Origin: Vampirovibrionales bacterium
GTDB taxonomy: Bacteria > Cyanobacteriota > Vampirovibrionia > Vampirovibrionales > Vampirovibrionaceae
Assembly (NCBI GenBank): GCA_029866025.1
Contig: JARXAD010000007.1
Location: forward strand, 1-64,000
Direction of reading: 5' to 3'
DNA: 64,000 nucleotides
Shown here: positions 45,689 through 58,111 of the stretch, in pieces
Layout of the letters: each line of letters starts with the position of its first letter
How positions within the stretch are numbered: the stretch's first letter is position 1
The notes under the pieces: generated by a model
What the model was told of the DNA's origin: nothing
The model's input: the letters and a program-made list of their open reading frames with translations, nothing else
Databases searched by the model: none
Program-made: the position numbers and the translations under genes

Positions 45689-47719
45689 ATGGCTCACCAA
45701 CGAGTCGCTTTTTTGTTTGGGGTGTACGTGGTTTCCATGAGTCTTGGTGGATTTTTCTCATTGGACGGAGTGGCCTTATTGGCTGGGCTTGCCGTGTTCA
45801 CCTGGCAAGCCTGGATGATTGTGATGGCCGAGCGGGGTCGCCGCAGCGACCTTATTAAGAAGGCCTACAAAGGTCGGCAGCCTTTTCAATTAGCGCTACT
45901 GGTGGCCTACACCGATCCACAACACCTTCCCGACTTGCAACACTTACTCCGCGCCATCGACCAACAAGAATACCCCACCAGCCGCCTGTCTGTTCATTTG
46001 GCCTGCACCCCAGAGACAGCCGCCGACTTTGAAAACGGCCTTCTTAACCCCAATGTGCGCTATTGGGTCCTACCCCCCGAAATTAATCCCTCCCACACTG
46101 GCTCTGTTCGCCAGTGGTTGATTGACCGTAGTTTGGCCACCCATCCTGCCGATTTTTTGGTCATGCTGCAAGCCAGTGACCTCATTAAACCTGATTTTTG
46201 TTCCAGTGTGGCTTCCTACGGGTATGAGTTCCCTGTCTTTCAAGGGTATGTGGGCACACGCAGCTCTAACTTGGGTGGCAAACAAACCAACATTTCCCCC
46301 ATGGAGCGTTTGGATGCCATTCATGGCCGCATTTTAAACCGGGTGGAGCAAGCCGGACGATTCCATGCCGGCTTACCATGTCAACTGCTTAGCAGTGGCT
46401 GGGCCATTCGCCCCGATGTATTGGAACGGGTGCCTTACCCCGACTCTCAAGCTCTGGATGCCTTAGCCTACACACTCCAACTCTCTCTCAATCATATTCG
46501 CGTGGGTTGGGCACCGGGTATGGTTGTCTTTCAGCGTAACCGGCTACGCTTGTTTGGCTGGTTGGGCCAGCATTGGCAAAATGCTTGGCAACGAACCTCC
46601 CTCCTCATTCAATCGGCCTCTCCTCTTTTAGGACGAAGCCTTGCCGAGGGGCGCGTTTCTGATGCGCTGGAATGGTGGTTGCTCATAGCCCCTCCTGGGT
46701 GGCTTGTAAGCGCAACTCTACTGTTACTGGCTCTTAGCACCACGTGGCAAAGCGGCTCTATTTGGGGTATCTCTCACTGGGGGCGCCCTTTGGTGTGGTG
46801 GATGCTTACCGCAGGCTGGTGCAGCTTTCAGGGTTTGGCTATGGCCGTGGCCCGGTGCAAATGGGGAGATGCGGTTTTTTCTCTCTGGTTAACCCCCTGG
46901 CTGGTAGCAGCCTCTGTGGCGCTTACCCCCTTGGTTTGGCTGAATGGCGCGGTAAAACAAGTGGTATTACGCCAACAAGCCAATCGTGGGTATCGGCAGC
47001 AACCCACCAACCGCCTCAATGAATCGTTAGTACCCATTCAAAACGTGTTTGACTTGCCTACAAGCCAATCATCGGTAATCGATTACTTAGCCAACGAAGG
47101 CCAGCAAGTCATGGACGACGCTGCCGATTCAGGACCGCCTAAGGCTTATCCGAAAGGGTTTCAAGACGCTTCCTTTGATCAAGCGGCCTCCATTCCCTCG
47201 CCTCAACCCGCATTACCAGAGGACGCCCCTCGCCTTGCCCCTCAACTATCCGAAAAAACCGTGTGGATTAGCAATGGCTCTCAACAAGTGGATGCCATCC
47301 TTCAAATTCATACGTTGCCCCCCAAAAGCAATGATGCCGAAGGGAAACAACGCTATCGGCTTACTCTTAACTATCGGCGTGTCTCTTTTTCTACCCAGCG
47401 CTATAAGATTTTAGATCAAGCCTATTACGAACTTCACGCCAAAATGAAGAGCAAAGGCTTAACCATCATGACCTGTGGCAGCTGCGGGTATTTTTACAAC
47501 CCCACCGCCGATGTCAGCGATCGGCTAAAAGGCAGTAGTGGCGTGTGCCTGTTTGGTAAGTTTGGCCGCCAAGTGGATTGGGAAACCGACGCCGTTACCG
47601 TGGTCACCGACGCTTGTAATTTTCACGCCGAGATTGGCGAACGCGAAAGCATTGTGCGCGAATGGCAAGAAAGCCTCTCGTCACCCACGCCCCACGCGGA
47701 TCATGTAACACATTATTAA
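45689..47719 (+). CDS. GT2-like membrane protein with degenerate active site and Cys4 C-terminal domain
   Basis: The 676-residue protein has two N-terminal membrane helices, a cytoplasmic GT2-like domain (FQLALLVAYTDPQHLPDLQHLLRAIDQQEYP opens it) and two or more helices around residues 330-420. Where active GT2 enzymes have DAD, the sequence here is LQASDLIKPDF, with both metal-site Asp positions changed. The C-terminal 160 residues form a separate domain with four cysteines (about 596, 599, 620 and 641: CGSC, GVC, DAC). It may be a regulator or scaffold rather than an active transferase. The ribosome-binding site is weak. Confidence 0.65.
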   Translation: MAHQRVAFLFGVYVVSMSLGGFFSLDGVALLAGLAVFTWQAWMIVMAERGRRSDLIKKAYKGRQPFQLALLVAYTDPQHLPDLQHLLRAIDQQEYPTSRLSVHLACTPETAADFENGLLNPNVRYWVLPPEINPSHTGSVRQWLIDRSLATHPADFLVMLQASDLIKPDFCSSVASYGYEFPVFQGYVGTRSSNLGGKQTNISPMERLDAIHGRILNRVEQAGRFHAGLPCQLLSSGWAIRPDVLERVPYPDSQALDALAYTLQLSLNHIRVGWAPGMVVFQRNRLRLFGWLGQHWQNAWQRTSLLIQSASPLLGRSLAEGRVSDALEWWLLIAPPGWLVSATLLLLALSTTWQSGSIWGISHWGRPLVWWMLTAGWCSFQGLAMAVARCKWGDAVFSLWLTPWLVAASVALTPLVWLNGAVKQVVLRQQANRGYRQQPTNRLNESLVPIQNVFDLPTSQSSVIDYLANEGQQVMDDAADSGPPKAYPKGFQDASFDQAASIPSPQPALPEDAPRLAPQLSEKTVWISNGSQQVDAILQIHTLPPKSNDAEGKQRYRLTLNYRRVSFSTQRYKILDQAYYELHAKMKSKGLTIMTCGSCGYFYNPTADVSDRLKGSSGVCLFGKFGRQVDWETDAVTVVTDACNFHAEIGERESIVREWQESLSSPTPHADHVTHY

Positions 47720-49470: not shown

Positions 49471-50382
49471 CTACGACAGTAGCTTTTGAACCACGCTGGC
49501 ATCAAACTGATTGATTTGAGAGAGAACCGACTGGGCTACATTTTGCTTCACCTGGTTTTGGGTCAATTCACTACTCGCCCGGGCAATATCCACATCACGA
49601 ATAGCCGAATGCGCTGCGGATAAGGACTCTTCGTACACACCTAAGTTGGTTGCCACGCCTTGCAAGCGGTTTTCTAAGGCACCAATAATGCCCCGACGAT
49701 TGGAAACCACTTGTAGAGCCCCATCAATGTCATTCATAAAGCTACGGAACAAAGCCCCTGTGGTAAGAGCAGTGGTACCTGTTGCAGGGTTATAAATGCT
49801 GTTTAAGCTATTAACGGTAAGCGTGCCGCCCGAATCAATGAGCCCAATGCCCCCACCGGTTAAATCGGTGTTGGCCTGCTGCATGGCACTGGTTAAATCC
49901 ACGGTGTTACCAGCAGCCAAGGTACGGGTACCCACTTGCACCAAGGCATTGGTAACCGTTCCATCCATCAATTTTTGGCCATTAAACTCCGATGACGAAG
50001 CCAAACGATTGATTTCATCTGCCAATGTACGAATTTCCATCGCTGCCGCGATACGGGCACTGGCGCTTTGGGTATCACTGGCTGCTTGAACAGCCAATTC
50101 ACGCATCCGCTGCAAATGGTCTTGAATCGTTCCTAAAGTAGATTCTGCAGTGCCTAAAATATTCACACCGGTTTCCGCATTAATGTTAGCTTGCCGAATG
50201 GAACGAAGATCTTGCTTCATGGCCACAGCGGTGGCATAGCCCACCGGATCATCCGAAGCCCGATTCACACGATAGCCCGTGGTTAACTGTTCAAAAGTAC
50301 GGCTCGTCGCCTTGGTACTTAAATTCATCTGATAGACTGCTCTCAGGCTAGAAATATTGGTATTGATGTTGGCAACGGCCAT
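49471..50382 (-). CDS. fliC: flagellin
   Basis: The 303-residue protein has the conserved N-terminal D0/D1 region (AVANINTNISSLRAV...ASDDPVGYATAVAMKQDLRS; NAETGVNILGTAESTLGTIQDHLQRMRELAVQA) and the matching C-terminal D1/D0 (EESLSAAHSAIRDVDIARASSELTQNQV...QSVLSQINQFD). The short variable centre (about residues 150-230) is typical of minimal flagellins. It polymerises into the external filament. AGAGGA lies 8 nt before the ATG. No other flagellar gene is in the window, so it is unlinked from the flagellar clusters. Confidence 0.96.
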   Translation of the reverse strand: MAVANINTNISSLRAVYQMNLSTKATSRTFEQLTTGYRVNRASDDPVGYATAVAMKQDLRSIRQANINAETGVNILGTAESTLGTIQDHLQRMRELAVQAASDTQSASARIAAAMEIRTLADEINRLASSSEFNGQKLMDGTVTNALVQVGTRTLAAGNTVDLTSAMQQANTDLTGGGIGLIDSGGTLTVNSLNSIYNPATGTTALTTGALFRSFMNDIDGALQVVSNRRGIIGALENRLQGVATNLGVYEESLSAAHSAIRDVDIARASSELTQNQVKQNVAQSVLSQINQFDASVVQKLLS

Positions 50383-50688
50383 GGGAACAATCCTCTCTCA
50401 GCTTATTAGGTTCTTCCGCTCATTTTCCATCGCTGTGGATACAGTGGGTATCGCTCTACGGCCCAATTTCATGAAGGGCACTGCGGTGTAAAATCCACCC
50501 CACAGGCGACTTAAAGCCACTCTGCCCACACCACTTGATGGAGAAAGTCATCCTTTACCCCCGCTTCTCTCCTCTGAGTAAAGGGGGGATAAACCCCACA
50601 TCCACCGCCTGCTGTTTTCACCTTGTGTTTGGTACCATTAGAAAAACGCCATCATCATGTTGGTTTTAGACGGAAGGAAGTGCATATC
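50383..50688. other. divergent intergenic region, flagellin and ugd-like promoters expected
   Basis: No gene is supported. I looked on the minus strand for a FliA (sigma28) promoter before flagellin and found only a poor match (GAGCGATA). No clean sigma70 pair stands out for the plus-strand dehydrogenase gene. The AAGGAAG at about 50674-50680 is that gene's ribosome-binding site. Confidence 0.4.
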
Positions 50689-52116
50689 ATGCCCCATCAA
50701 ACAGCCAAAAAAGGGATGAAAATGGCGGTGATTGGCTCTGGCTATGTGGGTACCGTAACGGGTGCGTGCCTGGCAGAATTAGGCCATACCGTGGTATGCA
50801 CCGACTTGGACGCCGATAAAATTTCACTGCTCCAAAAAGGCGACGTGCCTTTTTTTGAAAAAGGTCTAGCCAGTCTTATTCGCACCCACCAGCAAGACAA
50901 GCGCCTGACCTTTACCACCCAAACGCGAGAGGCCATTGCCGACGCCGACATTATTTTTCTCTGTGTGGGACCTGTTTCGTCTCATGTGGGGGGCAAACCT
51001 GATATGAAGCCGCTAACCTTAGCGGTAGACGATATTGCCGCCACCATGCGGCCTGACAAGTACCGCTTGATTGTGGAAAAAAGCACATTGCCTGTAAAAT
51101 CGGGCGAGTACCTTAAACAATTATTGTCTAAATCACTGCAGCTAGCCCACCCCGAAATTAGCCTAGACGAAGCCACCCGTCCCTTTGATATTACGGCGGT
51201 GCCCCAATTTATGCGGGAAGGCAACGCGATTCACGATTTTTTCAACCCTGATCGGGTGGTTATTGGCAGCGATAGCGAACGTGCCACGGATATGTTGGTC
51301 AAAATCTATCAGGCCCTCAATGCCCCGTTGCTGATTACCGATGTGAACAGTGCCGAAGTGATTAAGCACGCCACTAATGCCTTTTTGGCCATGAAAATCT
51401 CCTTTATTAACTCCATTGCCCATGTGTGCGAAAAAACCGACGCCGACATTACCATGGTGGCCAAAGGTTTGGGCATGGATAAACGCATTGCCCATGATTA
51501 CTTAAACGCAGGTATTGGGTATGGCGGCATTTTCTTCCCCAAAGATATTCATTCGCTGGTGAGCATTGCCGACGAATACCACATTAATTTGGATTTACTA
51601 AAAGCCACCGAAACCATCAATCGCTACCAACGCATTCATTTTATTGAGCAGGTGGAAGCCGCCGTGCGCCAGTCCACGGGTAGCCACTCACTGGAAGGTA
51701 AACGTATTGGGGTGTGGGGGTTGGCCTTTAGGCCCGACACCGACGACATGCGCGATTGCCCTAGTACCCATATTATTCGAGGGCTTCTCCACCGTGGGGC
51801 TCATATTCAGGCGTATGACCCTATTGCCATGGGCAAGGCCAAGGCGTTGTTTCCTAAAATTACGTATTGCGCCGACCTTTACGATGCCGCCCAGAACGTT
51901 GATGCCATTGCCATTTTAACCGAGTGGCCGGAATTTATTTATGCCGATTTTCAAAAACTGAAAGCTGAGAGTGCTTGCCGTGTGATTGTGGATGGACGCA
52001 ACTTGTACCACCCTCAAAAAATGGCAGAGTTAGGCTACGCCTACGTCAGTATTGGCCGTAAAAGCGTGATGCCCAAAGCTTCGAGCACCGATGAAAAACC
52101 TTTGGCCCACGTGTAG
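50689..52116 (+). CDS. UDP-glucose 6-dehydrogenase homologue lacking the catalytic cysteine
   Basis: This 475-residue protein has the NAD-binding MAVIGSGYVGTVTGACLAELGHTVVCTD, the central helix and UDP-sugar domain of the UDP-glucose/UDP-ManNAc dehydrogenase family. The active-site loop reads GYGGIFFPKD, so the catalytic Cys (C260 in the Streptococcus pyogenes enzyme) is Phe282. Gln173 replaces the Glu of the PEF motif (E141). The other residues remain: E177 (E145), K226 (K204), N230 (N208) and D286 (D264). AAGGAAG precedes ATG 50689. It may perform a different oxidation or be regulatory. It is followed by xseA with no gap. Confidence 0.88.
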   Translation: MPHQTAKKGMKMAVIGSGYVGTVTGACLAELGHTVVCTDLDADKISLLQKGDVPFFEKGLASLIRTHQQDKRLTFTTQTREAIADADIIFLCVGPVSSHVGGKPDMKPLTLAVDDIAATMRPDKYRLIVEKSTLPVKSGEYLKQLLSKSLQLAHPEISLDEATRPFDITAVPQFMREGNAIHDFFNPDRVVIGSDSERATDMLVKIYQALNAPLLITDVNSAEVIKHATNAFLAMKISFINSIAHVCEKTDADITMVAKGLGMDKRIAHDYLNAGIGYGGIFFPKDIHSLVSIADEYHINLDLLKATETINRYQRIHFIEQVEAAVRQSTGSHSLEGKRIGVWGLAFRPDTDDMRDCPSTHIIRGLLHRGAHIQAYDPIAMGKAKALFPKITYCADLYDAAQNVDAIAILTEWPEFIYADFQKLKAESACRVIVDGRNLYHPQKMAELGYAYVSIGRKSVMPKASSTDEKPLAHV

Positions 52117-54843: not shown

Positions 54844-55893
54844 ATGCTTACCATAACGTCTCCTTCTTTCTCTGGCATTTCAACTCCTAAAAAAAGCACT
54901 GTCTCGAATGACCCTAAAAAACCCGAGACGTTACCCACATCCCCTACCACCAAGGGAAGTCGGCAACCAGTTTACCTCCATCAGTGGGGAATGGGTTTGT
55001 GGCCTTTCAAGCTTATTGGCAAACCCAAACCTGTTGAGTTGGTGCATGTAAACATTGGGCTCCACAACTTACCCAAGGAACTGGTTGACTTAAAAATCGC
55101 TCACCTCTCTGATCTACATGCCCACCACGATTATGGACGACTCCCAAAAAACTACTGGGAAAATGCCATCGATAAAGTAGTAGAGGCAAAACCGGACGTC
55201 ATTGTATTTACCGGGGACGCCGTGCACTTGGGTAGCCATTTTTTAACAAAGGCCACCAAACTCTTAAGTCAGCTGCCAAAAAACACCCCGAAAATAGCCG
55301 TTTTGGGGAATCACGACATGGCCGATGGCCAACACGGCAAAGGGGCGTCTCAAGCGCTAAAAGATGCTGGTTTTATTGTGTTAGAAGATAGCGTTACCGA
55401 TATTATGCTACGTGGCAAGCGTATACGGCTACTGGGTGCAAAAGATTGCTGTGGAGAAAAAGGGAGTCTTAGCAATGTTCTAGCCAAGCAAAGTATTCAG
55501 GCTTTAAGAGAAGTCTTAAACAAGGTTCGTTATCATCAGACCCCTGCTGATTTAAAAATTGGCTTGGTTCATCACCCTGATTTGGCTAAAAAGCTGAAAA
55601 AAAACAATCTGAATGCGCAGCTCTTTCTCGCAGGCCATACTCACGGAGGGCATCATCAATTTAAGAAAGAGCCATTAAAAGGGCTCTACAAATGGGCTAA
55701 AGAGAGATTTGCTTTTGGGACCCCCAAGTACAACCACAAACTCTACACCATCTACGGAAATAGAAAGCTCTATGTATCTGGCGGAATGGCTACCCATATG
55801 CAAATTAAATGGGAGCATCCCCTCGCTACTATGCCCCCCATTCGCTTTGGCATGCCCCCCGAAATTCCTATATTAACCTTGAAGCAGGCTTAG
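54844..55893 (+). CDS. metallophosphoesterase (YkuE-like)
   Basis: The 349-residue protein has the calcineurin-like metal-binding motifs DLKIAHLSDLHAHHDYG (D, H), VIVFTGDAVHLGS, IAVLGNHDMADG and LFLAGHTHGGHHQ. Proteins of this type include UDP-diacylglucosamine hydrolase-like and YkuE enzymes; the substrate is unknown. The N-terminal 80 residues (Lys, Thr and Pro-rich, with a hydrophobic patch) may anchor it. Its codons are AT-richer than those of neighbouring genes. No clear Shine-Dalgarno is seen. It is convergent with, and overlaps by 4 nt, the ABC permease gene. Confidence 0.82.
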   Translation: MLTITSPSFSGISTPKKSTVSNDPKKPETLPTSPTTKGSRQPVYLHQWGMGLWPFKLIGKPKPVELVHVNIGLHNLPKELVDLKIAHLSDLHAHHDYGRLPKNYWENAIDKVVEAKPDVIVFTGDAVHLGSHFLTKATKLLSQLPKNTPKIAVLGNHDMADGQHGKGASQALKDAGFIVLEDSVTDIMLRGKRIRLLGAKDCCGEKGSLSNVLAKQSIQALREVLNKVRYHQTPADLKIGLVHHPDLAKKLKKNNLNAQLFLAGHTHGGHHQFKKEPLKGLYKWAKERFAFGTPKYNHKLYTIYGNRKLYVSGGMATHMQIKWEHPLATMPPIRFGMPPEIPILTLKQA

Positions 55894-56807
55894 TTGGAGT
55901 TTTGAAAATGTTTTTGCGATAAGCCAAGGCCCGCCAATAACACAAAGAGCAACACCCCCAAAGCGGCGGCGGCGCCAATATTAAATTGTTCAAAAGCCAG
56001 CTTTACCAGCCAAAACACCCACAGGGTGGTGGCGTTATTGGGCCCCCCCCGTGTGAGTAGATACACACTATCAAAGGTTTGGCAAGTATTAATGAGAGTC
56101 ACCGTCACCACAAACACCACGGTGGGCCACAACAGTGGTAGCGTAATTTTGCTCAACGCCTTCAGCCCGCTGGCGCCATCCAACTTAGCGGCTTCCAGCA
56201 CACTGTCTGGGATAGCTTGCAGCCCTGCCAAAAATAAAATGACGGTATAACCCACGTGTTTCCACACATGCAAGGCCACCAATGCCCCCAAAGCCGTGCG
56301 TTCATCGTACAACCACACCATGGGCTGACCGCCATTCAGCCAATTTAAAGCCCCAACCCATTGTAAGAGTTGATTGAGTAATCCAGTGGCCGGATCATAA
56401 ATCCAACCCCATACCAAGGCCACGCTAACCAGGGGAGCCACCACCGGTGTAAAACTTAACCATTGAATCCACTTGGCGCTTCGGGTGGCCTGTTGATGCA
56501 ACCACAGTGCCAGCCCTAGGCCCAATATCAACTCAAACACCGTAACCAACACCACAAACCACAGGGTTTGGGTCATCACCTTGGCAAACAACGGATCCAT
56601 TAACAGCGTTTGATACTGGTGGAGCCCTACCCACTGGGGCGCACCCAGCATATCCCAATGAGTAAAACTAAGGCCCAACGATGCTACGGTAGGAAGCCAC
56701 GTAAACAGAATAAGCCCCAACAGGACGGGTGCCACCAACCACCAGCCAAGAGTGTTTGACCAAAGTGTATTGGAGCAAAGGGACGACGGTTTTTGTGGAG
56801 GTGTCAT
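55890..56807 (-). CDS. ABC sugar transporter permease (MalF/UgpA-like)
   Basis: This 305-residue inner-membrane permease has six hydrophobic segments and the EAA loop EAAKLDGASGLKALSKITLPLLWP (about residues 208-231) that docks the ATPase. It overlaps the solute-binding protein gene by 4 nt (ATGA), so the two are co-translated. The partner permease (UgpE/MalG) and the ATPase are not nearby: the gene ends at the convergent metallophosphoesterase gene. The importer is presumably completed by genes elsewhere. Confidence 0.9.
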   Translation of the reverse strand: MTPPQKPSSLCSNTLWSNTLGWWLVAPVLLGLILFTWLPTVASLGLSFTHWDMLGAPQWVGLHQYQTLLMDPLFAKVMTQTLWFVVLVTVFELILGLGLALWLHQQATRSAKWIQWLSFTPVVAPLVSVALVWGWIYDPATGLLNQLLQWVGALNWLNGGQPMVWLYDERTALGALVALHVWKHVGYTVILFLAGLQAIPDSVLEAAKLDGASGLKALSKITLPLLWPTVVFVVTVTLINTCQTFDSVYLLTRGGPNNATTLWVFWLVKLAFEQFNIGAAAALGVLLFVLLAGLGLSQKHFQNSN

Positions 56808-58111
56808 GAGGAGAAGCCCCCGTGTGTGTTATGGCAAAAACGCTGAGCCAAGGGTTGAAGCGCAGTTGATAACTGCTCCGGTGTAGCTTCGGTATCCCAA
56901 TAGGGTTCCAAGGCCTGAGCCAACGCCGCTTCCACTTCGGGCCATTGAGCGTGGCTAGGGGTGGGTTGTCCTGTCGCGATGCTTTTACGCACCACACGGT
57001 AAAAAGCCGGCTCGTTGGCTAACGTTTTTTTTGCGACAGAGGAGCGCGCAGCTACCAATAAACCACTGGTCGCTTGGGCGTAAAGTACTCGCTCACTGGT
57101 GAGAAAATCCACCAGTTCCCGAGCCTCTCTTTGATGCTGAGAGACTTTGGCAATAACATAGCCTGTCGCGTCTACTCCTGTGGTACTACCCGCTTGCCCT
57201 GCTGGCAAAGGCCACACTCCCCAATTAAAGCGAGCTTGCTCGCGCAAAAGGGGCACTGTCCATCGGCCTGTCACTAAAAACGCCAGCCGTTGCTGCAAAA
57301 ACAGCTGGGTCATGGTGGTGCGCGCCGAGTCCTTCCGCAGGGGAGCATGGCCTTGAGCCGTTAAGCGCATATAATCGGCTAAGGCTTTGGTCGCCTTGGG
57401 CGTGTGCAGATTAAAACAGCCGTGGTTGTCCCAAAGTTGGCCGCTATTGCCCCACACCCACGGTAGCCAGTACAAAGGGGGTTCACGGTAAAACGACAGG
57501 GGGTAAACCTTTTCAGAAAGAGGTGTTTTTGGTTGGGCTTGAAGGATTTTTTGGTTAAGCCTTCCCATCTCCTCAAGGGTCCAATGGCGCGATGGGTAAG
57601 GGACCCCAAAACGCCGAAGCACATCGGTATTGACCAAAACCACCAAAGTAGAGACATCCCGTGGAATGGCCATCAACTGCCCATTTACTTGCAACGATTT
57701 TAGAGCCGTTGGGAAAAAAGTGCGGGCCTCTTTTGTGGGCAGCTTGATTGGCTCCAACAGCCCATGGCTGGCAAAAGGGGGGACTTGCCAGCTGTTCATC
57801 AGCATGACATCGGGCAGAAGATTGCTAACCGCCAGTAAGTGGAGCTTGGTTAAATAGCTTTCTGGGATATGACTGACATGCACCCGAATACGCAGGTGTT
57901 CTTCTTCAAAGCGAACCAATTGGTGGCGCAAGGTAGCCAGCTCTTGGGCGCCACCCCACGTAGAGAGAGTTAACGTAACCGTTTCTCCCTGTGGAATGGG
58001 AGGAAGTACTTGATTGCATCTATTGAACCCCAGCAATAAAAAAATCAGCAGCCCGCCCGCCAACCAAGGCCAAGCAGCAGCTACTCTATAGTCTGTGGGG
58101 AAAAAACGCAT
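56804..58111 (-). CDS. ABC transporter extracellular solute-binding protein (sugar type)
   Basis: The 435-residue protein has a hydrophobic N-terminal segment (WLAGGLLIFLLLGF, no clear lipobox) and the family 1 solute-binding fold: TLTLSTWGGAQELATLRHQLVRFEEEHLRIRV, LPDVMLMNSWQVPPFASHG and GVDATGYVIAKVSQHQREARELVDFLTS. It binds the sugar or oligosaccharide in the periplasm and delivers it to the permease. It is the first gene of a two-gene operon. Confidence 0.88.
   Translation of the reverse strand: MRFFPTDYRVAAAWPWLAGGLLIFLLLGFNRCNQVLPPIPQGETVTLTLSTWGGAQELATLRHQLVRFEEEHLRIRVHVSHIPESYLTKLHLLAVSNLLPDVMLMNSWQVPPFASHGLLEPIKLPTKEARTFFPTALKSLQVNGQLMAIPRDVSTLVVLVNTDVLRRFGVPYPSRHWTLEEMGRLNQKILQAQPKTPLSEKVYPLSFYREPPLYWLPWVWGNSGQLWDNHGCFNLHTPKATKALADYMRLTAQGHAPLRKDSARTTMTQLFLQQRLAFLVTGRWTVPLLREQARFNWGVWPLPAGQAGSTTGVDATGYVIAKVSQHQREARELVDFLTSERVLYAQATSGLLVAARSSVAKKTLANEPAFYRVVRKSIATGQPTPSHAQWPEVEAALAQALEPYWDTEATPEQLSTALQPLAQRFCHNTHGGFSS

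Follow-up and report, generated by a model that had tools for sequence, protein, structure and literature searches.

Our analysis shows that the Vampirovibrionales, which are flagellated and belong to the non-photosynthetic relatives of cyanobacteria (cf. PMC4451040), carry a homolog of UDP-glucose 6-dehydrogenase (UGD) in which the nucleophilic Cys and a catalytic Glu are replaced by Phe and Gln in every ortholog, and that these orthologs (here called Cys-less, with reference to the nucleophile) are under strong purifying selection. The representative described here is encoded in a 64,000-nucleotide stretch of a Vampirovibrionales genome (the window; contig JARXAD010000007.1, positions 1 to 64,000, assembly GCA_029866025.1), and its features are collected in Table 1. 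The explanation that we favor, to which we give an even chance, is that of a neofunctionalized UGD paralog that would act as a UDP-sugar-binding pseudo-dehydrogenase and form no UDP-glucuronate.

Table 1. Coordinates in the window of the Cys-less gene, its active-site codons, and its upstream neighbor
Feature	Position	Strand	Basis or distribution
Cys-less, Gln-for-Glu UGD-fold protein, 475 aa	50689..52116	+	ORF from ATG to stop, Pfam domains, AlphaFold2 model
VGTP loop, changed to GPVSSH with one residue inserted; family-invariant Thr83 absent	50968..50985	+	Alignment
Val171 for Asn of (N)PEF	51199..51201	+	Val in 17/17 orthologs
Gln173 (CAA) in place of Glu141/Glu161	51205..51207	+	Gln in 17/17 orthologs
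Lys226 to Asn230 (Lys204/Asn208)	51364..51378	+	Kept in 17/17
Ile281, adjoining Phe282; Ser in most canonical relatives	51529..51531	+	Ile in 17/17 orthologs
Phe282 (TTC) in place of the catalytic Cys (Cys260 in S. pyogenes, Cys276 in human)	51532..51534	+	Phe in 17/17 orthologs
Asp286 (Asp264)	51544..51546	+	Kept in 17/17
Arg348 for the family-invariant Lys320, which coordinates the UDP diphosphate (PMC4794789)	51730..51732	+	Arg in 17/17
Flagellin gene, divergent neighbor	49471..50382	-	PF00669/PF00700
Divergent intergenic region, 306 bases	50383..50688	.	No sigma-28-like promoter over background on the ugd-like strand

By its domains and predicted fold, the window protein is a member of the nucleotide-sugar dehydrogenase fold family. 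The UDPG/MGDP dehydrogenase Pfam domains PF03721, PF00984, and PF03720 score 173, 109, and 108 bits, all well over the cut-off, and TIGR03026 scores 388 bits (cut-off, 189.8). The AlphaFold2 model (pLDDT 89, pTM 0.86), in which confidence falls below 50 at residues 97-102, around the insertion in the Thr83 loop, has 2y0e, 3gg2, and 4a7p as its closest PDB entries. With the TuaD/BceC/UgdG group of bacterial UDP-glucose 6-dehydrogenases (NF047673; 2y0e, 4a7p, 3gg2), the window protein has in common the three domains, about 38-40% identity, the predicted fold (TM 0.84-0.95), the UDP-sugar-side residues, and GxGYVG, whereas the catalytic Cys, Glu141, and Lys320 are replaced and Thr83 is lost. Its score against the TuaD equivalog NF047673 is 438.9 bits, below the cut-off of 700, a shortfall that is weak taken alone, as this cut-off was not applied to canonical relatives.

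A sequence-only reading of this DNA had placed Phe282 at the position of the nucleophilic Cys and Gln173 at that of the Glu of the PEF motif (E141). Both assignments are borne out by the codons and by a gap-free alignment with the solved UGDs 3gg2, 2y0e, and 4a7p, which have the Cys and the Glu within the same motifs, and the E177, K226, N230, and D286 that it had named are mapped correctly. The active-site loop of the window protein reads GYGGIFFPKD, the region of the Glu motif reads VPQFMREG, and the loop consensus of the 17 orthologs is GYGGIF(F/L)(P/T)(K/R)D. Family members with Phe at the Cys site, for which the same reading had proposed a search, include every ortholog found in the order. 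In a survey of 229 nucleotide-sugar dehydrogenases, 18 residues were invariant, including Cys260, Glu141, and Lys320 (PMC4794789). Judged by its sequence, the window protein lacks three of the residues that mark a UDP-glucose 6-dehydrogenase (EC 1.1.1.22), namely, the Cys in GGxC, the Glu of PEF, and Lys320. The losses of family-invariant residues go beyond the two first noticed, as Lys320 is Arg in all orthologs (a conservative change) and Thr83 is lost in the window protein. A substitute Cys elsewhere was considered and rejected: the ortholog alignment has no clade-specific Cys close to the active site, since Cys430, fixed across the clade, belongs to the C-terminal domain, whereas canonical relatives also have Cys27, Cys37, and Cys247.

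On the UDP-sugar side, the equivalents of Lys204, Asn208, Arg244, Gly257, Gly258, and Asp264 are kept in all 17 orthologs. Of the two nicotinamide ribose contacts, Thr83 is lost in six orthologs, the window protein among them, and Thr118 in four, the window protein having retained it; both are intact in 11/17. GxGxxG and the ribose-binding Asp are retained in 14/17, window protein included. In family f3, Ala replaces the third Rossmann Gly (GxGYVA) and Gly replaces the ribose-binding Asp, possibly reflecting a change or loss of cofactor. In a paired comparison of eight genomes carrying both the Cys-less protein and a canonical UGD, the mean pairwise identities of Cys-less versus canonical proteins were 62% versus 72% for the NAD domain, 81% versus 76% for the central domain, and 64% versus 68% for the C-terminal domain. 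The NAD-versus-central shift exceeds column permutation (p 0.00015, with columns treated as independent); the NAD domain of the Cys-less protein evolves faster, and its central domain slower, than in the canonical paralog.

Orthologs were found in all 10 genomes of the window's family and in 17 of the 18 genomes of the order, with 53-72% identity over nearly the full length; the 17 include the window protein itself and span three families (f1, f2, and f3). Phe is encoded by TTC in nine of them and by TTT in eight, Gln by CAG in 12 and by CAA in five, and the position of Arg348 by five different codons. Pairwise dN/dS values are 0.020-0.122, similar to those of the canonical paralog (0.041-0.137). 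Given the synonymous codon variation and the low dN/dS, the replacements have been kept by selection. In the Cys-less clade, catalytic residues have gone while purifying selection has persisted, a combination that would suit a pseudoenzyme.

The window genome has a separate canonical UGD (L002, with GYGGSCFPKD and NPEF) and a UDP-ManNAc-dehydrogenase-like protein (L003), each encoded on another contig. The Cys-less and canonical paralogs are present together in most f1 and f2 genomes, where the two genes are unlinked. In family f3 (G014, G015, and G016; loci L036, L037, and L035), the Cys-less protein is the only full-length nucleotide-sugar dehydrogenase found. Phylogenetically, the Cys-less proteins form a single clade (100/100) that clusters with canonical enzymes of another class of the phylum (100/99), and the canonical paralog of the same genomes lies farther from this clade than do those enzymes. 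The next-best relatives in a sample of 386 genomes of the phylum (425-448 bits) are likewise canonical Cys/Glu enzymes of another class. The nearest canonical relatives (L070-L077), at 46-51% identity, have the helix motif KHASNAF in common with the Cys-less clade but all have the Cys and NPEF, and several adjoin a gene for a UDP-glucuronate-decarboxylase-like SDR (assigned by eye) rather than flagellin. Because a single clade clusters with canonical Cys/Glu enzymes, the Cys-to-Phe and Glu-to-Gln changes most simply arose once, from a normal UGD.

Across 289 genomes of the class, orthologs were restricted to the order, and among the loci read the pattern GxGGIF(F/L) matched only unrelated frames elsewhere in the class; the 386 phylum genomes likewise yielded no Cys-less ortholog beyond the order. 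Relatives in plasmid and phage collections were all below 60% identity, the best at about 42% and about 40% (compared by identity); a single match to the Phe-loop pattern in viral contigs was discarded as a methyltransferase-like frame, and a scan of genome contigs returned one relative, which is canonical. Nucleotide-sugar dehydrogenases outside the phylum were searched superficially, and further Cys-less clades may exist. In the literature searched, which included few subscription journals, neither a naturally Cys-less UGD nor the nucleotide sugars or flagellin of Vampirovibrionales were found to be described.

The second oxidation of UGDH runs through a thiohemiacetal and a thioester on the Cys. 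Because Phe and Gln occupy both catalytic sites, normal UDP-glucuronate formation by the Cys-less protein is very unlikely; we strongly infer that acid formation has been lost, with no thioester route, and we infer that UDP-sugars are still bound. Of the human UGDH mutants, C276S accumulates the adduct, C276A oxidizes added aldehyde and cannot complete the reaction from UDP-glucose, and Glu161Gln has been solved with the thiohemiacetal bound (PMC3184952; 3KHU). These mutants are altered at the same two catalytic positions, with intermediates trapped or the reaction incomplete, but they represent single laboratory changes, whereas the Cys-less proteins of an entire order combine the two, in fixed form, with further replacements.

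In the scheme that we favor, the ancestor of the order would have exchanged the nucleophilic Cys for Phe, the Glu of the second half-reaction for Gln, the adjoining Asn for Val, and the diphosphate Lys for Arg; the fold, the central domain that forms the dimer, and the contacts to the UDP-sugar would have been preserved. A UDP-sugar, accompanied in most members probably by NAD(H), would occupy the old active site and set a protein conformation or assembly that a partner reads; the partner process might be flagellin expression or surface glycosylation, as suggested by conserved flagellin adjacency. A pseudo-dehydrogenase is preferred because the nicotinamide contacts were repeatedly lost, the UDP-sugar contacts were all kept, and the dimer-forming domain is more conserved. 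Strong purifying selection, retention in f3 without a canonical UGD, the divergent flagellin neighbor, and the loss of in vivo function in Cys-to-Ala PmrE UGDs (PMC9927302) also speak for this reading. UDP-xylose and UDP-4-keto-xylose are allosteric effectors of human UGDH (PMC11713868), so there is precedent for a UGD scaffold that answers UDP-sugars without turnover. A sensor role of the Cys-less protein is speculative. Only tentatively, and at well below even probability, would we see in the Cys-less protein the first natural pseudoenzyme among nucleotide-sugar dehydrogenases to extend over an order, UGD derived and responsive to a UDP-sugar (and NAD(H)), which would tie the production or modification of flagellin to the state of the nucleotide-sugar pool. 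Against a pseudo-dehydrogenase, the first-oxidation residues Lys226, Asn230, and Asp286 never vary, and 14/17 orthologs have both GxGxxG and the ribose Asp, so that some hydride chemistry may have been retained; the 11/17 with Thr83 and Thr118 both intact and the lack of a sigma-28 promoter signal on the ugd-like side also count against it.

The main rival, possible if clearly short of probable, is a two-electron (one-NAD+) oxidoreductase that performs a single hydride step on an NDP-sugar, alcohol-aldehyde or other; its substrate perhaps has no free C6 hydroxyl, and its product is perhaps released or reduced for a surface or flagellar glycan. Such an enzyme would account for the retention of the Lys204, Asn208, and Asp264 equivalents and the Rossmann GxGYVG along with the loss of the second-half-reaction residues, for a bulky Ile-Phe pair at the site of the C6 group (placed there by homologous position), and for the flagellin gene next door. 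It is harder to reconcile with the loss of Thr83 and Thr118, invariant in the surveyed family, in separate sub-lineages (the window protein has no Thr83), with an NAD domain that is the less constrained part, with the lack of a consistently linked sugar-modifying gene, and with the five genomes, the window genome and four others, that have no match to Maf-type flagellin glycosyltransferases (PF01973). The sequence-only reading had proposed a stop at the aldehyde, another substrate, or a regulatory role. Changed chemistry or a regulatory role is upheld against error or decay, and the regulatory or non-catalytic branch is now somewhat favored over an aldehyde stop because Thr83 and Thr118 (in f3, the Rossmann Gly and the Asp) are being lost and the UDP-sugar contacts are not.

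A regulatory subunit that forms mixed oligomers with canonical UGD is improbable. The unusually conserved, dimer-forming central domain and the co-occurrence of the paralogs in most f1 and f2 genomes would suit it, but the two genes are unlinked, and a role purely as a subunit of canonical UGD is at odds with the Cys-less protein being retained in f3 genomes in which neither canonical UGD nor any other full-length member of the family was detected. Slow formation of the uronic acid by direct oxidation of the aldehyde hydrate, independent of Cys, is more improbable still. The oxidation of added aldehyde by human C276A and the three genomes with a Cys-less protein and no canonical UGD speak for it; against it, C276A could not complete the reaction from UDP-glucose (PMC3184952), a Cys-to-Ala change in PmrE UGDs abolished in vivo function (PMC9927302), Glu141 is gone as well, and the NAD site is most eroded in exactly those genomes that have no canonical UGD. 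An error of sequencing or assembly, or gene decay, which the sequence-only reading would have seen in a second, canonical ugd plus relatives with a normal Cys, can be dismissed: that second gene (L002) exists, but no ortholog has the Cys, and all 17, over three families, have identical replacements with varied codons, intact frames, and low dN/dS.

A flagellin gene lies upstream of and divergent from the Cys-less gene in 12 of the 13 f1/f2 loci with wide flanks, 8-437 bases from the called ORFs, and the flagellins there often number two to six in a row. The fourteenth f1/f2 genome (G009) has the same divergent layout by search coordinates, giving 13/14, with G011 as the lone exception. In 10 f1/f2 loci, a gene for a protein of about 220 aa follows 3' of the Cys-less gene in the same direction, in most cases no more than 150 bases away. 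The genes downstream in the window are instead xseA and xseB (assigned by eye). Neither flagellin nor the ~220-aa neighbor adjoins the Cys-less gene in family f3, though all 18 genomes of the order carry multiple flagellins. In the window genome (2.2 Mb), there are ten flagellin N-terminal domain matches, on contigs C3, C7, C8, and C13. The 306-base intergenic region gave no signal above background for a sigma-28 promoter that would drive the ugd-like gene, the Cys-less gene has no sugar-modifying gene as a consistent neighbor, and flagellin glycosylation by Maf is unsupported in the window genome, which has no PF01973 match. A flagellar link of the Cys-less protein is suggestive and speculative, and the two genes could be neighbors through inheritance of an old gene order that has no functional meaning.

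A clade in which the survey-invariant Cys and Glu (PMC4794789) are both replaced, under strong selection across an order, amounts to a natural experiment on the scaffold without its second half-reaction, and it offers a testable link between sugar nucleotides and flagella. For these genomes, the automatic label “UDP-glucose 6-dehydrogenase” would be corrected; in f3, with the Cys-less protein alone, that label would wrongly predict UDP-glucuronate.

The ~220-aa family, which has the motif DxDRSxG...WHxxSF...GRI and neither a Pfam match nor a PDB fold match, is present in 16/18 genomes of the order, often immediately 3' of the Cys-less gene (members, L063:6496-7158 on the minus strand and L120-L135; the copy of the window genome is at 150438-150821 on contig C13). 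Elsewhere in the window, positions 45689-47719 (+) encode a 676-aa protein with hydrophobic stretches that resembles family 2 glycosyltransferases by eye and matches no Pfam family at E 0.1. Positions 55890-58111 (-) hold genes resembling those for the permease and the binding protein of a sugar ABC transporter, and six further genomes have members of the same neighbor families close to their Cys-less/flagellin locus.
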